Shown here one piece after another: positions 6,427 to 58,226 of a stretch of DNA of 64,000 nt (its first letter is position 1; each line of letters starts with the position of its first letter). Under the pieces are notes generated by a model. The model made no database searches, was not told where the DNA came from, and saw nothing but the letters and a program-made list of their open reading frames with translations. A program made the translations under genes and the position numbers. The stretch spans positions 38,322-102,321 of the IMG/VR virus record IMGVR_UViG_3300037069_000769. One strand, written 5' to 3'. The DNA comes from a virus.

Positions 6427-7175
6427 TGATCTTTTGCGGTAACGCGATTGTCGAGGAAAGGTACTTTGAAGGGGATTGGGGCACTGAACTGCGGGGTTTT
6501 TCAGACTCCTTAACTTTGCAAACGTTTGCAATTTTTTTGAGTTCTGTTACGCGGCAGGGTTTTGAAGCTATCAATTTACCGTCTGTCAGTAGTGCGTCAG
6601 GTTCAGTAGGGGTTGGGGTAGTTGGAAGTCTCAGTGCCTCAGCGACTGGCAACCTACAGAGTGGTGATGTGGTGGGAGTTGTAGCCGACCTTGAGTTAAG
6701 TGTCGCAAATTTGTATGCTACCTCAGGGGTTGTGAGTGCTGAGGTATCATTTGCTGCGAACTCGGTGTGCGAACTTCTTCTGACTGCGGTTAATCAACTT
6801 CACGAGGTTATTGAATCTGATGCCGTAGCTAGTGAGATAATGTCGGCTCAAAATGAGCTTGTGGGTAGTCTAACTGAGATCGTTCGGGCTGGCTTATTGG
6901 GGCAGTTGTCAAATTCAATCGCGGATCAGATGACCTTAGGGATTTCGGCCGAGATTGCGTTTTCTGCCGGCAAGCATTACATTGAGAGTTTTGCCCTAGC
7001 CGTGTTGTCCCAACTGGAGCTTGCTGGGGTCTCCGGACGAACGTTTAACGTATTGAGGGTGTTGGGCGAAGCTTTTAAGCAAGCTCTAATGTCCATCGAA
7101 TCTCTCACGCAAGGTGACATGATTGATGAGACGCTTCGAGATAGCGATCTAACTGACGAAACATTTCTTCCTTGA
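6423..7175 (+). CDS. Hypothetical Ser/Ala-rich structural protein
   Basis: 250 aa, overlapping the previous stop. Rich in Ala, Ser, Val and Leu with long stretches of apparent beta or helical propensity and no clear family. An exact palindrome lies in frame at codons about 32-36 and reads LQTFA. There is no good Shine-Dalgarno, so translation is probably coupled. Confidence 0.6.
   Translation: MMIFCGNAIVEERYFEGDWGTELRGFSDSLTLQTFAIFLSSVTRQGFEAINLPSVSSASGSVGVGVVGSLSASATGNLQSGDVVGVVADLELSVANLYATSGVVSAEVSFAANSVCELLLTAVNQLHEVIESDAVASEIMSAQNELVGSLTEIVRAGLLGQLSNSIADQMTLGISAEIAFSAGKHYIESFALAVLSQLELAGVSGRTFNVLRVLGEAFKQALMSIESLTQGDMIDETLRDSDLTDETFLP
6517..6530. repeat. Palindrome copy 3 (inside a gene)
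   Basis: Exact copy within the coding frame of the 6423-7175 gene, read as L-Q-T-F-A. Confidence 0.95.
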
Positions 7176-7186
7176 GGGTGGCACAT

Positions 7187-8044
7187 ATGAAGTGGCTGTT
7201 TCAACTGATCTCCGCTCTGTACCGTGCCTATACCCCCGGCAGCTTGTTCGGTCAGACTACCGTTTTGAACTTCAAGTCTGAGTGTAGAGATTCAGATGGG
7301 AAACTTCGCTGGACGGATGATGTAAACCTCCCAGTGGTGATTGCTGGCAATATCCTTCCGCTATTGGGGCTGTTTGTAGCGTTGTCGCTGCTAGTGCCAT
7401 ACGGCAGTTGGATCGCCTTGGGGTTAGTGACCACCGCGGGCCTCAATAAGTTGCTTGACGCAACCGTTAAGACTGGTTTGACTTCGCCCGCATGGTACGT
7501 TGGGCTTATTGGGGCTAAAGTTACTGACGGTGCGATGACGGCATCGTCGGCTACTTTGACTTCGGCAAGTAATCCGTTTGCATCCGGTGATGTTGGCTTG
7601 CATATCATTGTTCGTGGTGCGGGAGCGGCTGGAGCCGATCTTTACACTACGATCAGTGCTTATACTAATGCTGGCCAAGTTACTCTGGCGGCTACGGCTG
7701 GGACAACTGTAAGTGGGGCTGGGGTAGCCTTCGATCCCCGTCCTGCTGACACGATGGCCTCGCATTCGTTTGTAAGTGTTACTCCGTTCAGTAACTCTAC
7801 TCGACCTGCTTGGACTCCGGGCAGCATCTCTGCGGGGTCTGTGAGTAATTCGGGTTCTCCCGCAGTGTTCACCGTCAATGCTTCGTCATACGTGTTCGGG
7901 GCGTTTCTTGCTGACGATAGCGGTGTTAGCGGTACTACCGGAACTCTGTACGGAGGATCAATGTTTACTGGAGGTATCGCTCGGCAGGTGGCCAGTGGTG
8001 ATACTTTGACTGTAACTGGGACTCTTACAGTGACGGCAGCATGA
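7187..8044 (+). CDS. Hypothetical virion protein with N-terminal hydrophobic segment
   Basis: 285 aa. ATG at 7187 is preceded by GAGGGTGG. Residues about 45-75 are hydrophobic (NILPLLGLFVALSLLVPYGSWIALGL), then a segment TTAGLNKLLDATVKTGLTSPAWYVGLI and a Thr/Ser/Gly-rich beta region to the end. The second segment resembles a widespread phage tail or decoration protein. Its stop overlaps the next start. Confidence 0.65.
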   Translation: MKWLFQLISALYRAYTPGSLFGQTTVLNFKSECRDSDGKLRWTDDVNLPVVIAGNILPLLGLFVALSLLVPYGSWIALGLVTTAGLNKLLDATVKTGLTSPAWYVGLIGAKVTDGAMTASSATLTSASNPFASGDVGLHIIVRGAGAAGADLYTTISAYTNAGQVTLAATAGTTVSGAGVAFDPRPADTMASHSFVSVTPFSNSTRPAWTPGSISAGSVSNSGSPAVFTVNASSYVFGAFLADDSGVSGTTGTLYGGSMFTGGIARQVASGDTLTVTGTLTVTAA

Positions 8045-8400
8045 CCACAACCTTTGAGGTAGATCAGGGAACATCTGCTAGATACTCTGCTACTCTGGTG
8101 GATGAGAATAGTGACCCCATTTCTGGGGCCGATCTCTTTTCATTAGTGTTGACGCTAACTGCTGCTGATGGGAGTTATATTAACTCTCGAAATAGTCAGA
8201 ATGTGTTAAACGCTAATGGAGTGACTGTGGATGATAGTGGGGTATTAGTGTGGGACTTGGCTCCCGCAGATAATCCTATTGTAAGCTCTATCGGGCTCGG
8301 TGGGGTTGAGGAGCACGACGCTCTATTTGAGTTTACGTGGTCGGGTGGGGCAAAAGCTGCCAAGCATCGAATTTCCCTGCTGGTAACTAAGTTGAAATAG
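8041..8400 (+). CDS. Small immunoglobulin-like virion protein
   Basis: 119 aa starting at an ATGA overlap. The sequence (EVDQGTSARYSATLVDENSDPISGADL) has the look of a single bacterial immunoglobulin-like beta sandwich. Probably an accessory tail or capsid protein. The palindrome begins directly after its stop codon. Confidence 0.6.
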   Translation: MTTTFEVDQGTSARYSATLVDENSDPISGADLFSLVLTLTAADGSYINSRNSQNVLNANGVTVDDSGVLVWDLAPADNPIVSSIGLGGVEEHDALFEFTWSGGAKAAKHRISLLVTKLK

Positions 8401-22329: not shown

Positions 22330-24846
22330 ATGGGTTCCGAAGTAAGTCAATATCTGTACAGTTACGCCATCCAGCCTTCGAGAGATTGGAGGTACGACTA
22401 CGCACTTGATATTCCGTTGTTAATTGCTCCCCGCAATAATACGAATATGTGCGTAGAAAATATCGACTGGCTGCTTGACGGCACTCCGTTTGAGGAAGGT
22501 GGGAACAGCGGTATTGACTTGGTGTGGACTTCAGTAACGGGAGCGGAGTATTACATCCTTCAGTGGTGTAACAACTCTAGCTTCCGTGGGCCTACGTTAC
22601 GAGCCCTGCAAGTTGCTGACTCCGGCAACCTGTACACAACCTACACGCTGAAGTATATCACCGATGTATGGTACGGTGAGACCATCTATTGGCGGGTGAT
22701 TGCGTATAACACTCACGGTGGAGTTGGAGCTAAGTCGGATACTTGGCAGGCCACTTACGACTGTCCCGGAGGTAACAAGTCTAAGCAGCCTCAAAAGCCG
22801 AGCAACAACGACAGTCAAATCTGTGACAAGTTCGGAGTTCGGATTACTCTGGACGGTCCTGAGCATATGATGTGCTGCGATAAGCAGATGTACACACTGA
22901 ATGCTCAGTACTCGTGCACCGCTGATGATGGGGCACCGATCACAATTTATGCTGTGAACTATGCGATCGCTCAGGGATCGGTAGGCGGCGTATCAATCAT
23001 TCAGCAGAATGACAAGTTAGTAGTCGTCGAGATTGCGGCCACAGCTACTAACAGCTTTACCCTGACTGCCTCTATTACGTTCCAAGTCACTACTGACGAA
23101 GGGACTAAGTTTTTTACGTGCACCGGGCACAAGAAGATTTACACAGACTGTCTGACAGGTAAGGCCAGTGAAAAACCTTGGCTGAAGCTTGCGTATTACC
23201 CTTTGCCCGGCGTGGTGTTCTACACCGATCCATTCTACTCGGGAGATATGGTAGGCACGGACGACACGATGGACCCCGGTCTAGCAGTTCCGGGTATTCT
23301 TGGTCAGGCTCCTTACTGCGTTTCAAATATCCATGACGGGCTTCTTGCCAGTCTTGGGCAGAATGGGGCATACTCTGTTGACCTGATTGCCGTCGGTCCA
23401 GTAATTGAGATCAATCGAACCTACAATTACTTCTATTACGATAATGGAGGGTGCTCCAGCGGCATCCCTATCGGAGAACTCACGTATCAGATCAATGAGG
23501 CCCGCGTTCATATTCCGGTAGGATGTGGTCTGTGGTACGATGCTGAGTACGGGCTCCGTGCTGACAAACGTATGGCCGGTCGAGGATTGGGTTGGGGCTC
23601 AGACGCTTGGGGAGCTAGTACGGATCATCGGAGAGACTGTCAGTTAGGCATTCACACTTGTGGAGGATTTTTCGGGTTTAATACCTACCTAGGTGGTCCC
23701 GATGGAGCTTGCGATGGGTGTCCTCCGGGAACCTCTCCCCAAGATTTCGGTATCGGCGAAGCATTGTTTCCGATTGCAAGCGAGTTGATCGATAACGTAT
23801 TTCTGGGTAACACTCCCGCACTTCCCAACACTGATCCCGTATCTGCTAGCGGCGGTCCTATTGTCATGGGATGGACTGCGGCCTCAATGGGCTCGCTGGA
23901 TAGTACTTGGTGTGGGTCCGGATACGTTCTTGCCCTCAATTACGACTGCTCTTTGAAGGTTACTGCTGGTGCGGGTTGGGCAAATCAAACCGCTCTTGGA
24001 GTAGATACCGACCATCTTGCGGGCAGAGGTCTTCTCACTCAGATAGACGAGCTTTGTGATAAACTGCAAGTTGACTTAGGTTGCGGTTTGGCCCTTGATG
24101 GTAATCAGATTGTCATAAACGGCTCAGACCTTGGAGGTGCGGGCATCGCAGCGGGAAGTGGGTGCTCGTTAAGTGTTATCACCGGATGTGGTACTTACAT
24201 CGATCCAGATACGCACGCTGTCACGTTTAATGGCTCTGACGTAGCTGGAAACGGTCTGGTTGTTGGGGGAACGGGGTGCTCTCTTGATGTGAATCCCGGT
24301 TGCGGTATCTACATTTCAGCCGATCAAGTTACCGTCAAACGTGATGACCTTATTGGGAATGGGTTGAAAGCTGGATACGGTACGTGTTCGATTGACATTA
24401 ACTACGGTTGTGGTCTCACCTTGTCCTATGGTGCTCTGATCGTCAATAAGTCAACTTTGGCAGGCAAGGGGCTGCAAGCTGCGGGCTTATCTTCGTCCTG
24501 TGCTCTTGACGTGTTTGTGGGATGCCACCTCACTATTGAGACCGATAACAGTATTGGGGTAAGTACTGACGACGGCTTGTGTGGTGACGGTCTTACAAAT
24601 GGAACTAGCGGTTCCTGTGAGAACATTAATATCAATCCCGGATGTGGTTTGAAGATCAGTGGAGGCACGGGAACGGGCGGAGCTGTAATGGTAGATAACT
24701 CTGCTCTTGCCGGTGCCCACCTTGTAACCTCAGGAACTTGTGCTCTTGCTGTGAATGTTACTTCCCAAACTGTAGTTACGGGAGTAACCTGTAATGGTGA
24801 TGGGACGATTACAGTAACTACCGCAACGGTAAATGTCGTGGTGTGA
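22330..24846 (+). CDS. Tail-tip / receptor-binding protein with Cys-paired tandem repeats
   Basis: 838 aa. Residues about 50-140 look like a fibronectin type III domain (SVTGAEYYILQW...TIYWRVIAYNTHGG). From about residue 580 the protein is built of tandem units of 35-40 aa with a GCG or GCH turn (near bases 24080, 24184, 24298, 24406, 24520, 24640), a short strand pair, and SxLAGxGL plus CxLxV. Each unit carries two cysteines. This resembles a repetitive fibre shaft or an adhesin. The position after the distal-tail gene makes a receptor-binding role likely. Confidence 0.65.
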   Translation: MGSEVSQYLYSYAIQPSRDWRYDYALDIPLLIAPRNNTNMCVENIDWLLDGTPFEEGGNSGIDLVWTSVTGAEYYILQWCNNSSFRGPTLRALQVADSGNLYTTYTLKYITDVWYGETIYWRVIAYNTHGGVGAKSDTWQATYDCPGGNKSKQPQKPSNNDSQICDKFGVRITLDGPEHMMCCDKQMYTLNAQYSCTADDGAPITIYAVNYAIAQGSVGGVSIIQQNDKLVVVEIAATATNSFTLTASITFQVTTDEGTKFFTCTGHKKIYTDCLTGKASEKPWLKLAYYPLPGVVFYTDPFYSGDMVGTDDTMDPGLAVPGILGQAPYCVSNIHDGLLASLGQNGAYSVDLIAVGPVIEINRTYNYFYYDNGGCSSGIPIGELTYQINEARVHIPVGCGLWYDAEYGLRADKRMAGRGLGWGSDAWGASTDHRRDCQLGIHTCGGFFGFNTYLGGPDGACDGCPPGTSPQDFGIGEALFPIASELIDNVFLGNTPALPNTDPVSASGGPIVMGWTAASMGSLDSTWCGSGYVLALNYDCSLKVTAGAGWANQTALGVDTDHLAGRGLLTQIDELCDKLQVDLGCGLALDGNQIVINGSDLGGAGIAAGSGCSLSVITGCGTYIDPDTHAVTFNGSDVAGNGLVVGGTGCSLDVNPGCGIYISADQVTVKRDDLIGNGLKAGYGTCSIDINYGCGLTLSYGALIVNKSTLAGKGLQAAGLSSSCALDVFVGCHLTIETDNSIGVSTDDGLCGDGLTNGTSGSCENININPGCGLKISGGTGTGGAVMVDNSALAGAHLVTSGTCALAVNVTSQTVVTGVTCNGDGTITVTTATVNVVV

Positions 24847-28597: not shown

Positions 28598-28696
28598 GCC
28601 CCGGTCCCATGAAAGCTGTTGGGGAGGTATCGCTTAGCCAGTTGACGCCATCAGCAGTATTTGGAAATGGCATGGGTTCGAGTCCCAGCCGGGGCA
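28598..28696 (+). tRNA. tRNA-like element with abnormal middle (probable pseudo-tRNA)
   Basis: A perfect 7-bp acceptor stem (GCCCCGG 28598-28604 with CCGGGGC 28689-28695) plus discriminator A, and a T arm ATGGG-TTCGAGT-CCCAG (one mismatched pair). The span is 99 nt, and the 67 nt between acceptor and T arm do not give a 5-bp anticodon stem with a 7-nt loop; a GCCAT/ATGGC pair with a 14-nt loop is the best stem. It may be a decayed tRNA, an insertion-bearing tRNA, or a tRNA mimic. No amino acid can be assigned. Confidence 0.45.
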
Positions 28697-28700
28697 TTTT

Positions 28701-28714
28701 TGCAAACGTTTGCA
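28701..28714. repeat. Palindrome copy 12
   Basis: Exact copy four bases after the tRNA-like element and 12 bases before the macro-domain ATG. Confidence 0.95.
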
Positions 28715-28726
28715 CGAAAGGGAGAT

Positions 28727-29179
28727 ATGAACGTTCAATACAAGAAGGGCGACCTTCTCGAAGCTACTGAGGACATCATTGCTCATGGCTGTAACTGTGT
28801 GGGCATAATGGGAGCTGGGGTTGCCAGAGTTATCAGTGATCGATGGCCTGTGGTGTTTCCGGCTTACTCGAAGGCTTGCAATGCTGGACTGTTCCAGTTG
28901 GGAACGTGTCAGTTGTTGCAGGTGTCCATTCCGTTTCCAGTCCCTACTCGGGGTATGAGGATTGCCTACGTGGCGAATTTGGGAACTCAGCATGCTCCCG
29001 GCCCAGACTTCAGATTGTCGGCCCTGCGGACGGCTTTGGATAACTTGGTTCTCCGTGTTGGGCGTGAACGTGTAGCCATCCCTAAGATTGGGGCGGGGTT
29101 AGGCGGAGGAAATTGGCACGAGATCGAGAGGGTTCTCTTTGACACCCCTCTGAACTTTACAGTCTATGTCTTGGAGTAG
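28727..29179 (+). CDS. Macro domain protein (ADP-ribose binding)
   Basis: 150 aa, a single macro domain. ATG 28727 has AAGGGAGAT upstream. Family signs: YKKGDLLEATEDIIAHGCN at the N-terminus with the Asn that contacts the distal ribose, GIMGAGVARVI (first phosphate loop), and IPKIGAGLGGGNW (second loop). Poa1p/ALC1-like macro domains remove or bind ADP-ribose, and DarG-type macro antitoxins reverse DNA ADP-ribosylation. In a phage this suggests handling of NAD-derived signals or reversal of ADP-ribosyl damage. Which substrate it uses is not visible. Confidence 0.85.
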   Translation: MNVQYKKGDLLEATEDIIAHGCNCVGIMGAGVARVISDRWPVVFPAYSKACNAGLFQLGTCQLLQVSIPFPVPTRGMRIAYVANLGTQHAPGPDFRLSALRTALDNLVLRVGRERVAIPKIGAGLGGGNWHEIERVLFDTPLNFTVYVLE

Positions 29180-30434: not shown

Positions 30435-30632
30435 GTGGGTGGTTCGGTAACGTACGATGTGTACACGTATCGCATGGGCAAATTTTGGCTGTGCGATAGT
30501 TTCGAGAGTGAGGAGATGAATAAGACTCCGGAACTGCTCGCACAGATCAACGATCCTACGTTACGTCATCGAGGACGGTGGCGGGTGGTGAAACGTCAGG
30601 GTAAGAAGGCTCGGGCATTCCTGCCTGCGTAG
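30435..30632 (+). CDS. Small hypothetical protein
   Basis: 65 aa from GTG 30435, AAGGAG upstream with six bases spacing. Begins GGSVTYDVYTYRMGKFWLCDSF and has a basic end. Under the 30151 promoter. No family recognised. Confidence 0.5.
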   Translation: MGGSVTYDVYTYRMGKFWLCDSFESEEMNKTPELLAQINDPTLRHRGRWRVVKRQGKKARAFLPA

Positions 30633-30645
30633 TTCTTACCTTGTC

Positions 30646-30715
30646 TAAGTCGTAGCTCAAACAGGCAGAGCGTCGGAGAATTCCGAGGTTGTGGGTTCAA
30701 ATCCCACCGGCTTAG
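30646..30715 (+). tRNA. tRNA-like gene with shortened anticodon loop
   Basis: A full cloverleaf except for the anticodon loop: acceptor TAAGTCG/CGGCTTA, D stem GCTC/GAGC with a GG-bearing loop, anticodon stem TCGGA/TCCGA, T arm GTGGG-TTCAAAT-CCCAC, discriminator G. The anticodon loop is GAAT, four bases instead of seven, and lacks U33; reading a 4-bp stem gives a six-base loop AGAATT. Total length is 70 nt. GAA (Phe) is the only familiar triplet, but charging and decoding by this loop are doubtful. Confidence 0.6.
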
Positions 30716-30718
30716 GTT

Positions 30719-30732
30719 TGCAAACGTTTGCA
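30719..30732. repeat. Palindrome copy 13
   Basis: Exact copy three bases after the tRNA-like gene and 16 bases before the ATG at 30749. Confidence 0.95.
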
Positions 30733-30748
30733 AAGGTGAGTTCCAAGA

Positions 30749-31204
30749 ATGTCTGACGAATACATCAGTATCAAAGCTGCTTGTAAACTTGCAGGCGTAT
30801 CCCAAGGCACACTATACTTAGAGATCGATCGAGGTAATCTGAAAGCTCTGAAAGCTACTGTCGGTCTTAACAAATATAGACGCACACAGTATCGAATCCT
30901 CCGATCTGATTTTGAGGTATGGGTCAACTCTTACAGACTTACCCGACCGTCTACGAATGCGGCGGGTGTTTGTGTATTCTGCGGTAAGGCTTGTTCAACC
31001 GCAGTTACCAGTTGCGATACTTGTCCCTCTCAGGAAATCATTGCTAAGGGCACTGCTGAAGCTCGGGCAGAGTGGGACGCGGTTACTGAGTTGGGAAGAC
31101 GGGCATCCGGAAAACCTGTTGAGTTTACCTTGCCTCGATTTATTCCTCGCACAAGACGTGAGAGGGATATTGTCCATAACCTAAGTCGTGAGGCAACCGG
31201 TTGA
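30749..31204 (+). CDS. MerR/excisionase-type HTH protein with zinc-like Cys motif
   Basis: 151 aa. Residues 3-60 (YISIKAACKLAGVSQGTLYLEIDRG, then RRTQYRILRSDFEVWV) are the helix-turn-helix DNA-binding unit of the excisionase/HTH_17 type. Residues about 73-92 hold CVFCGKACSTAVTSCDTC, four or five cysteines suited to zinc. The C-terminus is basic. It could be a phage regulator. Palindrome copy 13 directly upstream makes it a candidate for autoregulation, but MerR-type proteins usually prefer other operator shapes. Confidence 0.7.
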   Translation: MSDEYISIKAACKLAGVSQGTLYLEIDRGNLKALKATVGLNKYRRTQYRILRSDFEVWVNSYRLTRPSTNAAGVCVFCGKACSTAVTSCDTCPSQEIIAKGTAEARAEWDAVTELGRRASGKPVEFTLPRFIPRTRRERDIVHNLSREATG

Positions 31205-51582: not shown

Positions 51583-51633
51583 ATGCTTGGTGCAATTGGT
51601 GTGAGTGCAAACGGTTTGCAAAATTCGTTATAA
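51583..51633 (+). CDS. Mini-ORF, possible leader peptide
   Basis: 16 codons (MLGAIGVSANGLQNSL) with GAGAGAG nine bases upstream. Its second half overlaps a palindrome variant. The Shine-Dalgarno and position in a promoter leader suggest real translation, perhaps regulatory. Confidence 0.4.
   Translation: MLGAIGVSANGLQNSL
51606..51620. repeat. Palindrome variant with one extra base
   Basis: TGCAAACGGTTTGCA: both half-sites exact, but spacing increased by one G at the centre. Confidence 0.6.
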
Positions 51634-53718: not shown

Positions 53719-55239
53719 ATGGCTGCAACCCCAATTAAGATGAACAAGGTGGTGGAGCTTTATATCCGGACGGGAGAGAGAACGTTCAAAGCCTTCCGCC
53801 TGATCGCATGGAAGTGCCGGGCATCTGCCGACTTGGAGGTCTTGTCTGTTGACGGAGACAAGGTCACAAAGGTCTCCTGCTCATGTGTGAAGTTCAAGGC
53901 CGAAAGTAAGTGCGATCACTCTGCTGCCCTGATCGGAGGTGTGTCTTATGCGGCCACGTCTCACGATGGGTGGAGTGAGATTGAGACTGTCGGCACGATG
54001 CGGGCCACCCTCAAGCGAACTGCCCTGATCGCTGACGATGTTCACGGTCTCGGAGTGCTGGCTGTTGTTCACCCGTCGCTGCCCGATCTGAACTTGGTGA
54101 ACTTTGGCTGGTTGATGTCGAACGCTGTGACTGAGGGCATTCGAGCCCAGACTGGCACCCTACGGCCTCAGCGGTTGTTTGACGAGAGCGTGCTGTCTGT
54201 TGAGAAGGGCTTTACGTTCGAGCATGCTGAGGTGACCGCCAAAGGTAAAGCCTGTACGGCGACTCAGTCCGAGGATGACGTTAAGCACATCATTACGGAG
54301 TTCGGGTTGTCTGAGTTCAAAGGATTTGCTCACGTCTCGGGAGGGATTCCGATGGGTGAGTCCTCTGAGCCCGAGCCTCCGGCCAGCAAGGCCCCGAGCA
54401 AAGCTAAGCCGTGGAACGACATCAAGCGTCCTGATCCCAGTACGTTCTACGTTGATCGGGATACGTGGACCCAGATGGTCTACGGTATGTTGAACGGCAA
54501 GAACATTCTGCTGACCGGACCGTCGGGGTCTGGAAAATCTGAGTTGTGTTATCAGGTGGCTGCTGCCTGCGGTCGCAAGCTGGAAGCGTTCAACATGGGG
54601 GCCATGAGTGAGCCTCGCACCAGCCTGATCGGTAACACTCACTTCGACCGAGAGAAGGGGACATGGTTTGCTATGTCCCGGTTTGCCCGAGGTGTGCAGA
54701 CGCCTAACGGAGTAATCTTGTTGGACGAGATGACCCGCTCTGATCGTGGAGCGTTCAACATTCTGCTGCCGCTGCTGGACCGTCAGGGCTATTTGGCTCT
54801 CGATGAATCCGAGGATGCGACAGTGATTCGCAAGGCTGAGGGTGTGTGCTTCCTCGTTACTGCGAATATCGGTATGGAGTACACTGGCACTGAAGCGATG
54901 GACAAGGCGGTGCTGGATCGCAATGCCATCGTGATTGACATGCAGTTTCCGCCTGCCGCCAGCGAAGTGCAGGTCTTGCTGGGTCGATGTCACGGTCTCT
55001 CCAACTTGCTCGCGAAGCGGTTGGTGGACTTGGCCGAGAGCCAGCGGCAACTGTGGCGTTCAGGAGACATGCAAACGGCGATCAGCACCCGAATGCTCAT
55101 TGAGGCTGGTGAGCAGATTTCGCGGGGAATGGACTTCAAGTTGGCCTGTAGGTTCTGTGTCGAGAATCACTTCTCCAACGAGGGTGATGACGACTCGGAG
55201 CGAACCAAGGTCAAGCAGCTTGTTCAGAAGGGCGGCTGA
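53719..55239 (+). CDS. MoxR-type AAA+ ATPase with N-terminal SWIM zinc finger
   Basis: 506 aa, ATG with AGGATTAGGAG upstream. A SWIM-type finger near residues 54-67 (Cys54-x-Cys56-x8-Cys65-x-His67), then a spacer with Pro/Ala/Lys, then an AAA+ core: Walker A GPSGSGKS (267-274; Lys273), Walker B LLDE (Asp336-Glu337), sensor-like FLVTANIG, and a late arginine-containing stretch. MoxR/CobS ATPases act as unfoldases that work with VWA partners; the next large gene is such a partner. A SWIM finger on a MoxR protein is not something I know as usual. Confidence 0.78.
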   Translation: MAATPIKMNKVVELYIRTGERTFKAFRLIAWKCRASADLEVLSVDGDKVTKVSCSCVKFKAESKCDHSAALIGGVSYAATSHDGWSEIETVGTMRATLKRTALIADDVHGLGVLAVVHPSLPDLNLVNFGWLMSNAVTEGIRAQTGTLRPQRLFDESVLSVEKGFTFEHAEVTAKGKACTATQSEDDVKHIITEFGLSEFKGFAHVSGGIPMGESSEPEPPASKAPSKAKPWNDIKRPDPSTFYVDRDTWTQMVYGMLNGKNILLTGPSGSGKSELCYQVAAACGRKLEAFNMGAMSEPRTSLIGNTHFDREKGTWFAMSRFARGVQTPNGVILLDEMTRSDRGAFNILLPLLDRQGYLALDESEDATVIRKAEGVCFLVTANIGMEYTGTEAMDKAVLDRNAIVIDMQFPPAASEVQVLLGRCHGLSNLLAKRLVDLAESQRQLWRSGDMQTAISTRMLIEAGEQISRGMDFKLACRFCVENHFSNEGDDDSERTKVKQLVQKGG

Positions 55240-55250
55240 TCGGCTACGTT

Positions 55251-55264
55251 TGCAAACGTTTGCA
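55251..55264. repeat. Palindrome copy 24
   Basis: Exact copy one base before the ATG at 55266. Confidence 0.95.
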
Positions 55265-55265
55265 A

Positions 55266-55349
55266 ATGTTCGTGATCGCATATCTGATTGGAATGATTGT
55301 GCTTGCAGGATTGTGGGCAGTTCTTGGAGTGCGGATCAGAAAACTCTAA
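55266..55349 (+). CDS. 27-residue transmembrane peptide
   Basis: MFVIAYLIGMIVLAGLWAVL followed by GVRIRKL: one transmembrane helix and a basic end, the shape of small phage membrane peptides. The ATG follows the palindrome by one base, without a Shine-Dalgarno. It lies between the two partner genes. Real translation is likely but unproven. Confidence 0.45.
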   Translation: MFVIAYLIGMIVLAGLWAVLGVRIRKL

Positions 55350-55368
55350 AAAACGCTCGCAACTTCTA

Positions 55369-55397
55369 TTGACAATCAGAGTACAGCTTGCGATAAT
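55369..55397 (+). promoter_or_regulatory. Promoter of the TGCGATA type
   Basis: TTGACA (55369-55374), 17 bases, GATAAT (55392-55397) preceded by TTGC. Drives the HExxH-VWA gene. Confidence 0.82.
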
Positions 55398-55439
55398 ATA
55401 TCGGTAGTCGATTCCCGCAACCCCGCAGGAGCAGGTATT

Positions 55440-58226
55440 ATGTCGTCGTGGTTCACTGAGGTTCGAGCAGTCCTGCTGGATGATTATCATCTGAAGTGGG
55501 ACAAGCTTGCCACGAAGGAGCGGGCTTATCTCGCCAAGCTTCGATCTGAGGGTTACTCTCCGTACGATGCGGCTCACAAGCTGTTCATGTCGGAAGAAGT
55601 TCTCGTTGAGGACGAAGCGAAACTTATCAGCGAGTTGACCGAAGAGTACGCTGTGATCTCCGAGTCTGACGAGGAGACAGGGTACATTGGCGATCTGTTG
55701 GGTCGGCTGTCAAAGTACGAGGGCAGCGATACTAAAACCTTGTCCTCTGCGTGGACTCGGGGCAGGTCTAAGAAGAAGGAGCCGCGAGGTATCGTTCTTG
55801 ATCTCATTAAGATCAAGAACGGTGTCCGCAGTCTGTTGCGGGCTCACGGCGTCCCGAAGAACCTCAAGTTGGAGCTTGCCAACATTACGGCAGGTGCCAG
55901 CGGCATGGCCGGATTCCATGACATTGGGACTTGGCGAAGGCCGTTCATCTTCCTTGACACGAAGGTGTACGACTCTTGCGATGCCCGCGAAGTGTACGAT
56001 GTGTACTGCGGGATCGGGCTGCATGAGGCCAGCCATATCAAGCATACCCGAACAATGTATGAGCGGTTAAAGTCCGGAAAGTTGGACAGTACTACCCGCC
56101 GTGCAATGTGGGAAGGCTTGTTCGAGGACGAGCGGATTGAGGAGTTGGTTCGACAGGAATCGCCCGGTTATGCTGGGTATCTCCAGATCATGCGTCGGGC
56201 CTTGTTTGAGAAGAAGGCGTTTGGTTGTGCCATGCGTAAATGGCATAACAAGATGACTGACCTTGACCGAGTGTGTTTGCTGATCTTCGGCCTCATTCGG
56301 TGTCCCTACCTGCTCAGCCCTGAGATGAAGGAATGGCGGACTCTCAAAGGTGAGTGTGTTTTCGAGAGTCTAAAGAAGTTGTTCCCGACGATCCCCGAAT
56401 CCGAAAGGATCGTGGAGATTTACGGTGAGCGACTGGAGAAATTCTGGACTCGCCTCCAAGCTGAATACAAGGAGCTGGCTAAGGCCCGTAAGGAGGAACT
56501 CGATAAGCTTCGGGGGAAGGACAAGCCTGCGAAGGATGACAAATCCGGGGAGTCTGCTGAAGGCACCCTAGTACCTACTGACACAGGGGAGACTGCTGAT
56601 GGACGAGTCAGCGATTCGGATGGTGGGATCAAAGGCGACAGTTCGGGAGCTGACTCCGGAGACGGAAGTTCTAGTGGTGACGACAGTGAACGGGGAGCCT
56701 CATCTGATTCCGACGAATCAGAAGAACTTGGAGATAGTGTTGGAGAGGGCGAAGATGATGCAGACGAGACCTCTGAACGAGCGGCCGAGAGAGTTGATCG
56801 AGGCGGAGTACGCGAAGGCTGTGAGACAGCCGGAAGTGACGTTGGCGACACAGGGGAGAGAGAACCGGAAGGATCGCTTGGCGAAGAAGGCGAGACTGAA
56901 GCGGGAGAGTTCGAGGAAACTCTCGAAGGCAGCCCGTCGGATGAAGAAGATGGTGAAGTAGACGATGAGCTTGAGCGGTTGAGAATGCAACTCGATGCCG
57001 ATGAGCGGGACGCTGAATTCTCTCGCCTTGCTGGTGAGTTGCATTCGATCATCAAGACGGCTGGGGATCGAGCTGCACGTCGAGCTTCTATGGATTTAAC
57101 GGAGGCCATGAAGGGCGGCAAAACCCTTAAAGACCTCTTCCCCGAAGTAGGGGTAGGTGGCGATGCCCGAGAAGCCTTGGAGAGAGCCTTCTCTGACCGC
57201 GAGGATGAGGGTAGATTCTCCATCGAAGATATTCGGCACATGATGGAGGTATTGGACGTAGTTACTGACTCGCTTGATGCTGAAGAAAGTACCGAGCTTG
57301 AGAAGGTGACGAAAGAGCGGATCGAATTCGGGGACGAGTGGTCTGCTGATGAGCGTCGAAAGTCCGAAGGTAGTCGATCTCACGCCGAGAAGCTTGACCG
57401 CAGAACTGTTATCATCCATCCGCAAGTGACTCAGTATGAGAAAGATAAGTATAATGCCTATCTCGACAAAGTTCGAGGTCAGGTCATGCGGATGCGGGGT
57501 GTTTTCCGTCTGAGATTGGGTAAGCGTCTCTACCAAGAGAATGAGCGGATCGAGGGCCGTCTCCATCGTCGGAAACTCAGTCAGATTATGAGTACCGATC
57601 GAGTGTTCTTCCAGCGTAATGAGAAGCATGCTCACGGGTTGGCCATCTGTTTGCTGCTCGATGAGTCAGGGTCGATGGGTAATGCCGGGCCGCACCCCAG
57701 TCGCAGCCCCAACCGAGCCCAGATTGCTCTCGAAGTAGCTATCCTGATCTCCGAGGCTCTTAAGGGACTTCCGGGTGTTGAGCTTGAGGTGTACAGCCAT
57801 GCAAGTTGCGGTGACTCTGACATGGACTGTCAGGTCAAGTATCTGTACGGTAAGAATAATCCCAAGTTGCAGGCTATAGCGGGCTTCGAGTCTGGGGCTC
57901 AGAATTACGATCATATGGCCCTGAAGACTGCTGGCGACCTGTTCATCGCTAACACTCAGAACACCAGCAGACTGATGATTGTCTTGTCCGACGGATCACC
58001 TTGCGGCTACATGTACGGTGGGGCAGTTGCCAACCGGCAGACTCGACAGGCCGTTCAGAATCTGGAGAAGCGTGGGGTCAAGGTGATGGGAGTAGCCATC
58101 CACGATTACAACGCATCCGCGATCTACGGGAAGAATACACTGAAGTTCCTTGACCTGTCTGACCTTATCAACCGCATGAGGCGGCTGGTGGTTCAGGTGA
58201 TTAAGCAGAATTCGTCGCTCGAATGA
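55440..58226 (+). CDS. Giant HExxH-VWA protein, partner of the MoxR ATPase
   Basis: 928 aa, ATG with GCAGGAG upstream. Residues about 150-330 form a metallopeptidase-like domain: HEASH (His195-Glu196-x2-His199) and downstream FEDERIEE with Glu229 or Glu231 as likely third ligand. About 360-545 is a long Ser/Asp/Glu-rich acidic region. After a helical part, residues about 735-925 are a von Willebrand A domain with MIDAS DESGS (Asp741-Ser743-Ser745) and VLSDGSP. The order matches CobT-like/DUF2201 partners of MoxR ATPases. Confidence 0.78.
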   Translation: MSSWFTEVRAVLLDDYHLKWDKLATKERAYLAKLRSEGYSPYDAAHKLFMSEEVLVEDEAKLISELTEEYAVISESDEETGYIGDLLGRLSKYEGSDTKTLSSAWTRGRSKKKEPRGIVLDLIKIKNGVRSLLRAHGVPKNLKLELANITAGASGMAGFHDIGTWRRPFIFLDTKVYDSCDAREVYDVYCGIGLHEASHIKHTRTMYERLKSGKLDSTTRRAMWEGLFEDERIEELVRQESPGYAGYLQIMRRALFEKKAFGCAMRKWHNKMTDLDRVCLLIFGLIRCPYLLSPEMKEWRTLKGECVFESLKKLFPTIPESERIVEIYGERLEKFWTRLQAEYKELAKARKEELDKLRGKDKPAKDDKSGESAEGTLVPTDTGETADGRVSDSDGGIKGDSSGADSGDGSSSGDDSERGASSDSDESEELGDSVGEGEDDADETSERAAERVDRGGVREGCETAGSDVGDTGEREPEGSLGEEGETEAGEFEETLEGSPSDEEDGEVDDELERLRMQLDADERDAEFSRLAGELHSIIKTAGDRAARRASMDLTEAMKGGKTLKDLFPEVGVGGDAREALERAFSDREDEGRFSIEDIRHMMEVLDVVTDSLDAEESTELEKVTKERIEFGDEWSADERRKSEGSRSHAEKLDRRTVIIHPQVTQYEKDKYNAYLDKVRGQVMRMRGVFRLRLGKRLYQENERIEGRLHRRKLSQIMSTDRVFFQRNEKHAHGLAICLLLDESGSMGNAGPHPSRSPNRAQIALEVAILISEALKGLPGVELEVYSHASCGDSDMDCQVKYLYGKNNPKLQAIAGFESGAQNYDHMALKTAGDLFIANTQNTSRLMIVLSDGSPCGYMYGGAVANRQTRQAVQNLEKRGVKVMGVAIHDYNASAIYGKNTLKFLDLSDLINRMRRLVVQVIKQNSSLE

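Follow-up and report, generated by a model that had tools for sequence, protein, structure and literature searches.

It has long been asked why phages carry tRNA genes, and the explanations commonly offered, namely codon supply and resistance to cleavage, assume that the encoded molecules decode. The body of a tRNA is read by RNase P, the 3' processing enzymes, the CCA-adding enzyme and EF-Tu, and its anticodon loop is what the ribosome reads and what anticodon nucleases cut. Non-decoding tRNA mimics as a kind are already known: the mascRNA of MALAT1 and the tRNA-like RNAs of murine gammaherpesvirus 68 are eukaryotic, non-decoding cloverleafs handled by tRNA enzymes, and the tRNA-like domain of tmRNA comprises an acceptor and a T arm without an anticodon. 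A tRNA-like molecule was reportedly described by Burroughs and Aravind in 2016 together with the SPFH modules of RNA-repair systems. Phage tRNAs with altered anticodon loops are, in turn, understood to keep decoding. The mutations in their anticodon loops let them evade host tRNases, according to one account (PMC10264068). The Y RNA YrlA, another tRNA mimic encoded in RNA-repair operons, is presented as no substrate of the anticodon nuclease and as a possible competitive inhibitor of it (Hughes et al. 2020, PMC7790460).

The locus analysed here lies in a window of 64,000 bases, corresponding to bases 38322-102321 of a virus record of 102,321 bases; coordinates are those of the window unless stated otherwise. 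ARAGORN calls a single gene in the window, at 30645-30716 on the plus strand, to which it gives the type 'tRNA-???' and no amino acid, and it calls no tRNA-type gene in the other 38 kb of the record; neither ARAGORN nor Rfam detects a tmRNA in the window. The Rfam tRNA family (RF00005) matches 30646-30715 over its full length with 50.2 bits, against a curated cut-off of 29 (E 8.7e-08), and at E<=1 this is its only place in the entire record. The cloverleaf thus scores above the family cut-off, and what is absent is the seven-base anticodon loop, of which only four positions are occupied in the RF00005 alignment. The predicted fold of the element, at -29.1 kcal/mol, is far more stable than that of shuffled sequences (-16.6 kcal/mol; z -4.2; 0 of 200 shuffles).

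The body spans 30646-30714 and is followed by the discriminator G30715, which, as read from the sequence, might form an eighth acceptor pair with C30645. The acceptor stem TAAGTCG/CGGCTTA (30646-30652 with 30708-30714) is paired at all seven positions, once as G-T, and the D stem GCTC/GAGC (30655-30658 with 30668-30671) and the variable region GGTT were likewise read directly. The anticodon arm TCGGA-GAAT-TCCGA (30673-30686), which is seen in the sequence, the RF00005 alignment and the minimum-energy fold alike, consists of a fully paired stem (30673-30677 with 30682-30686) closed by the loop GAAT (30678-30681), three bases below the standard seven. The T arm GTGGG-TTCAAAT-CCCAC has its stem at 30691-30695 with 30703-30707 and the loop TTCAAAT. 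No CCA is encoded. The bases that we take to make the usual tertiary contacts are present, namely U8, A14, A15 with U48, G18 and G19, and TTC. The sequence-only reading had reported a tRNA-like gene with every arm paired and a loop of only GAAT, and this description is upheld by ARAGORN, RF00005, the fold and the sequence. An anticodon loop of only four bases rules out normal decoding by the element. In this respect it is unlike the tRNase-evading phage tRNAs, with which it shares being a phage gene altered in the anticodon loop. Unlike YrlA, which accompanies Ro60/Rsr, it occurs in a record without a TROVE match and with no Y-RNA family among its Rfam matches.

Bacterial genomes offer a further comparison. 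The pattern applied to viral contigs below, in which conserved D and T arms stand 3 to 4 bases closer together than normal, recovers at least 119 bacterial loci; of the unique intact sequences among the matches listed, 32 of 70 combine a fully paired 5-pair anticodon stem and a 4-base loop. Pfam searches of sample neighbours found RtcR in L310, SPFH/Band-7 in L310, L342, L285, L338 and L331, and RtcB in L338. By local tblastn, at least one of Band-7, RtcB and RtcR lies at 61 of the 119 loci listed (Band-7 at 57, RtcB at 26 and RtcR at 15, some of them perhaps paralogues), and rough ORF calls place the start of the Band-7 gene mostly some 130-500 bases downstream of the tRNA-like. A separate set of 51 of the 119 listed loci carries short-loop tRNA-likes without Band-7, RtcB, RtcR or DUF6353. 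Among the matches listed, GNRA or UNCG caps close 16 of 32 4-base loops in the repair loci (10 of 19 once relatives are merged at 80%) and 5 of 15 where neither partner is present. In the same listed matches, 11 of 57 short-loop sequences from repair loci and 7 of 47 from the loci without either partner have an encoded CCA. The GAAT-loop element resembles what we take to be the general form of the tRNA-like from SPFH/Band-7 and RtcB repair operons, a cloverleaf with acceptor, D and T arms, and the bacterial loci compared share with it an anticodon loop of about four bases. It differs from the repair-operon forms, which adjoin Band-7, RtcB or RtcR and are in tandem at 9 of 17 bacterial loci scanned, in that its record has no Band-7 or RtcB match and its loop GAAT is neither a GNRA nor a UNCG cap. 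Viral carriers are mostly without the partner genes of repair operons: in a profile sample of 49 virus records, comprising the window's record, G009 and 47 carriers, RtcB and TROVE were each found in 0 of 49 and Band-7 in two (G040 and G065), and local tblastn at the 212 viral loci listed placed RtcB at one (L249) and Band-7 at none.

The same record contains a second tRNA-like, the 'other element' of the sequence-only reading, which occupies 99 bases at 28598-28696 on the plus strand and has an abnormal middle. Its acceptor GCCCCGG/CCGGGGC forms seven of seven pairs and its T arm four of five, with the loop TTCGAGT, and it is without a standard anticodon arm. The overall fold of 28599-28698 is no better than that of shuffles (z -0.17), and the tRNA-Sec family RF01852 gives only 19.3 bits (E 1.5). 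A scan of the record for an acceptor plus T arm finds just these 2 elements, against a mean of 0.03 and a maximum of 1 in 100 dinucleotide shuffles. The phage thus has a pair of tRNA-likes, and the searches of its record turned up no tRNA able to decode. In the stretch 28598-28730, the second tRNA-like ends directly before a macro-domain gene (PF01661); macro domains of this type can remove ADP-ribose, and the pair might possibly mark a counter-defence neighbourhood. Elsewhere in the window (53719-58226), a MoxR/CbbQ-type AAA ATPase adjoins a protein of 928 aa whose C-terminal part gives a weak vWA match, and a cobalamin-riboswitch-like match at 51613 was set aside as below its cut-off.

Relatives of the phage identified through the portal protein (40-62% identity) show a comparable pattern in part. 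RF00005 matches at E<=1 in 3 of the 24, and in one of these above the cut-off: G024 has a normal tRNA-Pro, and G009 and G004, with weak matches, carry tRNA-likes with abnormal middles. That of G004 (L042 117-232) has 116 bases, an acceptor with seven of seven pairs and a T arm with five of five, and it sits shortly before an ATG. That of G009 (L043 17641-17898, minus strand) consists of a 5' and a 3' tRNA-like half, separated by about 250 bases, whose acceptor strands match, and has a GAAA-capped hairpin preceding the T arm; a group I intron as the source of its length was rejected, there being no match at E up to 1. A further acceptor-plus-T-arm match, at 1206-1354 of L044 from a relative, appears fortuitous. 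A direct search for kin of the GAAT-loop element, with two patterns against the viral_contigs set, from which the records nearest to the window's may be missing, found no relative, and no close relative with a normal loop was found. The best full-length phage match is a normal tRNA-Arg of Hydrogenobaculum phage 1; a match in Pan3 was discarded as a relative, given that it has no ARAGORN gene and no clear cloverleaf.

Short-loop tRNA-likes as such recur in many viral contigs. The pattern described above gives at least 120 rows with many different sequences, a second scan admits 2 to 17 missing bases between the D and T arms and yields listed matches that are a lower bound, and the combined viral set comprises at least 212 loci and at least 247 unique sequences. 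The analysis of stems was confined to sequences with at least 6 of 7 acceptor pairs and at least 4 of 5 T-stem pairs, and expectations were drawn from random deletions of 34 normal tRNAs and, as a second null, from shuffled arms. At a D-to-T spacing of 24, three bases short, 30 of the 62 viral matches listed combine a fully paired anticodon stem and a shortened loop, against 25% expected from random 3-base deletions and 4% from shuffled arms. The excess is not made by kinship, since 24 of 50 of the matches listed retain such a stem when relatives are collapsed at 80% identity and loci known from the family scan only are left out. Among the viral matches listed, perfect stems amount to 11 of 22 at spacing 25 (29% expected) and 2 of 11 at spacing 22 (4% expected); at spacing 23, the size class of the GAAT-loop element, they amount to 6 of 22 against an expected 27%, that is, without excess. 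The argument that decay would break stems first thus holds at the level of the class, on the strength of spacing 24, and gains no support at the spacing of the element from which it was drawn.

The free-size scan lists 119 viral sequences, of which 30 have a spacing of 24, 30 a spacing of 25 and eight a spacing of 23, and the notion of a size peak at exactly three missing bases was given up because spacings 24 and 25 are equally common. The scan shows a second mode at spacing 12-13, with 15 unique sequences among the matches listed; in 13 of these 15 the acceptor and T arms are intact and the space left cannot hold an anticodon arm. Examples of this form, with paired acceptor and T arms, a conserved D arm and 12-13 bases from D to T, include L178, L180, L183, L185, L197, L201 and L226, among others, and CCA is encoded in 0 of 14 sequences of spacing 12-14 among the matches listed. 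In the viral matches listed, CCA is likewise encoded in just 10 of 106 short-loop sequences versus 20 of 34 normal-length ones from the same loci (9 of 94 versus 14 of 26 with relatives collapsed). GNRA or UNCG caps occur on 2 of the 22 viral 4-base loops listed, with no clear preference; by eye, the 5-base loop TCGCG caps differing anticodon stems in L101, L102, L165, L170 and L217, four of which were counted.

Within the stretch examined, ARAGORN calls the short-loop element as the sole tRNA-type gene at 36 of 62 viral loci. The viral set is a mixture, in which some members look like young deletions, such as L053 with its 83.8% identity over 93% to a tRNA-Asn of Gordonia phages, and others do not. 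A common downstream protein was sought and dropped, since only 4 similar pairs occur among 60 ORFs. One phage contig (L055) has two short-loop tRNA-likes, at 6974-7026 and 8040-8091, with 3- and 4-base loops, and the same 4-base form is present in the genome of Phocaeicola vulgatus ATCC 8482 (L298). Such genes are easily overlooked, because ARAGORN may label them tRNA-???, as in the window, or, as with several other viral short-loop elements, assign an amino acid or miss them. That short-loop genes are common in viral contigs, some of them too short to hold an anticodon arm, emerged as a by-product of the analysis. The literature searched, to which subscription papers mostly do not belong, contains no description of short-loop phage tRNA-likes, which is weak evidence of novelty.

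One group within this set permits a closer look at selection. DUF6353, a phage gene to which no function is assigned, lies near short-loop tRNA-likes at 19 of 212 viral and 7 of 119 bacterial loci among the matches listed, L054, L083, L091 and L273 being among them. The tRNA-like stands 45 to 664 bases upstream of it in 22 of the 26 rows, the exceptions being L061, L139, L184 and L319, and across those 22 rows the identity of the DUF6353 protein to the query drops from 100% to 27%. In an alignment of 17 distinct sequences, in which L058 is misaligned in the anticodon arm, 89.9% of the cells of the cloverleaf are paired. Compensatory cells number 38, versus 13.0 in shuffles and at most 14 in controls with slid structures, and the covariation score is 0.347 versus 0.142 in shuffles. 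Changes on both sides affect three of the five anticodon-stem pairs, the best being column pair 29-38 (A-U, U-A, G-C). Two of the five covariation measures show no excess over shuffles: the 10 pairs with double changes are reached by 76 of 500 shuffles and the 23 further pair types by 130 of 500, neither being exceptional. In 10 of the 17 sequences the arm lacks its innermost pair, so that many of them have a 4-pair stem and a 6-base loop. The compensatory stem changes show that phage short-arm tRNA-likes can be kept by selection, as far as this one family goes. PF19880 (DUF6353) has no match in the window's record, and seven named actinophage regions, from 221 records with a DUF6353 match, have no tRNA-like by ARAGORN or arm scan.

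Directly behind the GAAT-loop element, at 30717-30734, lies the perfect 18-base palindrome TTTGCAAACGTTTGCAAA. The sequence-only reading had placed the end of the gene three bases before a palindrome and had seen a link between the two; the palindrome itself stands, and the distance does not, since it begins one or two bases past the tRNA body. Nor is the link a specific one. The window (433-63915) contains 31 copies of TTTGCAAACGTTTGCAAA at up to 3 mismatches, eight of them exact, where shuffles predict 0, and a search of the record for the 16-base core, with up to 2 mismatches allowed, finds 51 sites, versus 10 for a reversed control pattern. In nine relatives the core is absent from seven and present in two as one 2-mismatch copy each. 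We therefore rejected the palindrome as a part of the tRNA-like: it is a generic repeat, whose position says nothing special about the element. By eye, many copies lie shortly upstream of start codons, and TTTGCAAACGTTTGCAAA resembles LacI-family operators; a genome-wide repressor or stoperator system is a possible explanation of the repeats. An 89-aa ORF at record position 23760-24029 gives a sub-threshold LacI-HTH match.

The genes around the element, all on the plus strand, bear on what it might do in the transcript. A small upstream ORF of 65 aa (30435-30632, by translation with a guessed GTG start) ends 12 bases before it, and a gene for a 151-aa helix-turn-helix protein (30749-31204; HTH_17 PF12728, with the excisionase-type matches phrog_66 and phrog_2907) starts 32 bases past it; no relative of this protein was found in viral_contigs, from which the nearest records may be missing, or in 6 portal relatives. 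The predicted fold includes a possible 8-pair helix closing the region 30635-30740, formed by CTTACCTT (30635-30642) and AAGGTGAG (30733-30740), which would tentatively pair the ribosome-binding site of the next gene. The main functional rival to a mimic is an RNA-processing signal, whereby RNase P and the 3' enzymes would cut a polycistronic transcript and separate or activate the downstream HTH gene, whose ribosome-binding site the removal of CTTACCTT would free. The position between two ORFs of the same strand, the predicted helix over the ribosome-binding stretch, the circumstance that a tRNA body alone suffices and the precedents of mascRNA and of the C4 RNA of phage P1 all speak for such a signal. 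We nonetheless consider it unlikely. The helix is weakly supported, since shuffling the 5' flank gives an energy as good in 35 of 2000 cases and shuffling both flanks does so in 236 of 2000; the second tRNA-like has no comparable flank helix by eye; and the ORFs downstream of the viral elements share no gene, with the exception of DUF6353 in one group. Far less probable is an attP copied from a host tRNA gene, for which the excisionase-like HTH domain of the next gene would speak. We give this origin hardly any credence: the record, which is possibly incomplete, has no match to the tyrosine integrase PF00589, which is present in 13 of 39 records tested, the window's record being one of the 39. 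That the element belongs to an RNA-repair system or to the Y RNAs, as a YrlA-type or SPFH-associated tRNA-like, is very improbable as well: the anatomy is that of the bacterial tRNA-likes beside RtcR, Band-7 and RtcB, yet RtcB (PF01139), Band-7 (PF01145), TROVE (PF05731) and the PF09414 RNA ligase are all without a match in the possibly incomplete record, and membership was rejected in the absence of these partner genes.

A more serious contender is that the element is a recently inactivated phage tRNA, having suffered a 3-base deletion in its anticodon loop with the remainder yet to decay. This would require the simplest event, some copies, L053 among them, look like normal phage tRNAs that lost bases only lately, shortenings by 2 and by 3 bases are equally common, and the stems of spacing 23 are kept no better than after random deletion. 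Against it stand the want of any normal-loop close relative, the abnormality of the second tRNA-like of the same phage and the existence, near DUF6353, of a family in which a short arm has long been kept. The missing CCA, at odds with its frequent presence in the normal-length viral tRNAs listed, is a weak counter-argument, as CCA-less genes are common. Given that no relative was found and that the nearest records may lie outside the set searched, recent decay stays a likely enough history, holding about a third of our belief.

The reading to which we lean, though with no great confidence, is that the GAAT-loop element is a structurally kept, non-decoding tRNA mimic, perhaps serving as an uncleavable decoy against tRNA-targeting defence. 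The parts that are read by the body-binding enzymes have been kept and the part used by the ribosome and the nucleases has been lost, which favours a mimic acting outside translation. The intact cloverleaf with the loop alone changed, the abnormal second tRNA-like and the want of a decoding tRNA point in the same direction, as do the abnormal-middle forms of G004 and G009, the many viral short-loop cases and the compensatory changes near DUF6353. Further support comes from the bacterial counterparts listed, with their Band-7, RtcB or RtcR neighbours and GNRA/UNCG caps. The mimic is weakened by the failure to find a relative, by spacing-23 stems that look as they would after random deletion, by the lack of a cap preference among viruses and by a record with no match to RtcB, Band-7, TROVE, PF09414 or DUF6353; the DUF6353 family itself contributes two measures of five at shuffle level and the misaligned L058. 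In outline, the element would be transcribed together with its neighbours, host RNase P and 3' processing enzymes would recognise the tRNA body and trim the transcript, and the trimmed mimic could then occupy proteins that bind tRNA bodies. Because the part cut by anticodon nucleases is missing, its most likely use would be to engage the host enzymes that attack tRNAs in infection, as a competitor or as a decoy that they cannot cleave. An idea of this kind has been published for the related bacterial RNA YrlA (Hughes et al. 2020). For the viral element, the decoy step is a guess by analogy with the bacterial counterparts, about half of which, among the matches listed, are in RNA-repair operons. 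The alternative proposal of a charged-tRNA mimic is less favoured, in view of the lack of an encoded CCA here and its rarity in the viral short-loop sequences listed, even though CCA can also be added after transcription.

A wider interpretation, possible and rather doubtful at present, is that tRNA mimics unable to decode form a class so far not described, carried by phages of many lineages, and that they bait either the host immunity directed at tRNAs or the sensing of damaged tRNAs that triggers host repair and defence. If true, the class would range from forms with a trimmed anticodon loop to forms with no anticodon arm, the tRNA body being kept throughout, and it would correspond, on the viral side, to the tRNA-like RNAs of bacterial RNA-repair operons. 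A recurrent non-decoding class in viruses would separate the tRNA body from the reading function, and if such an RNA helps phage growth, the benefit must come from the binding of the tRNA body.
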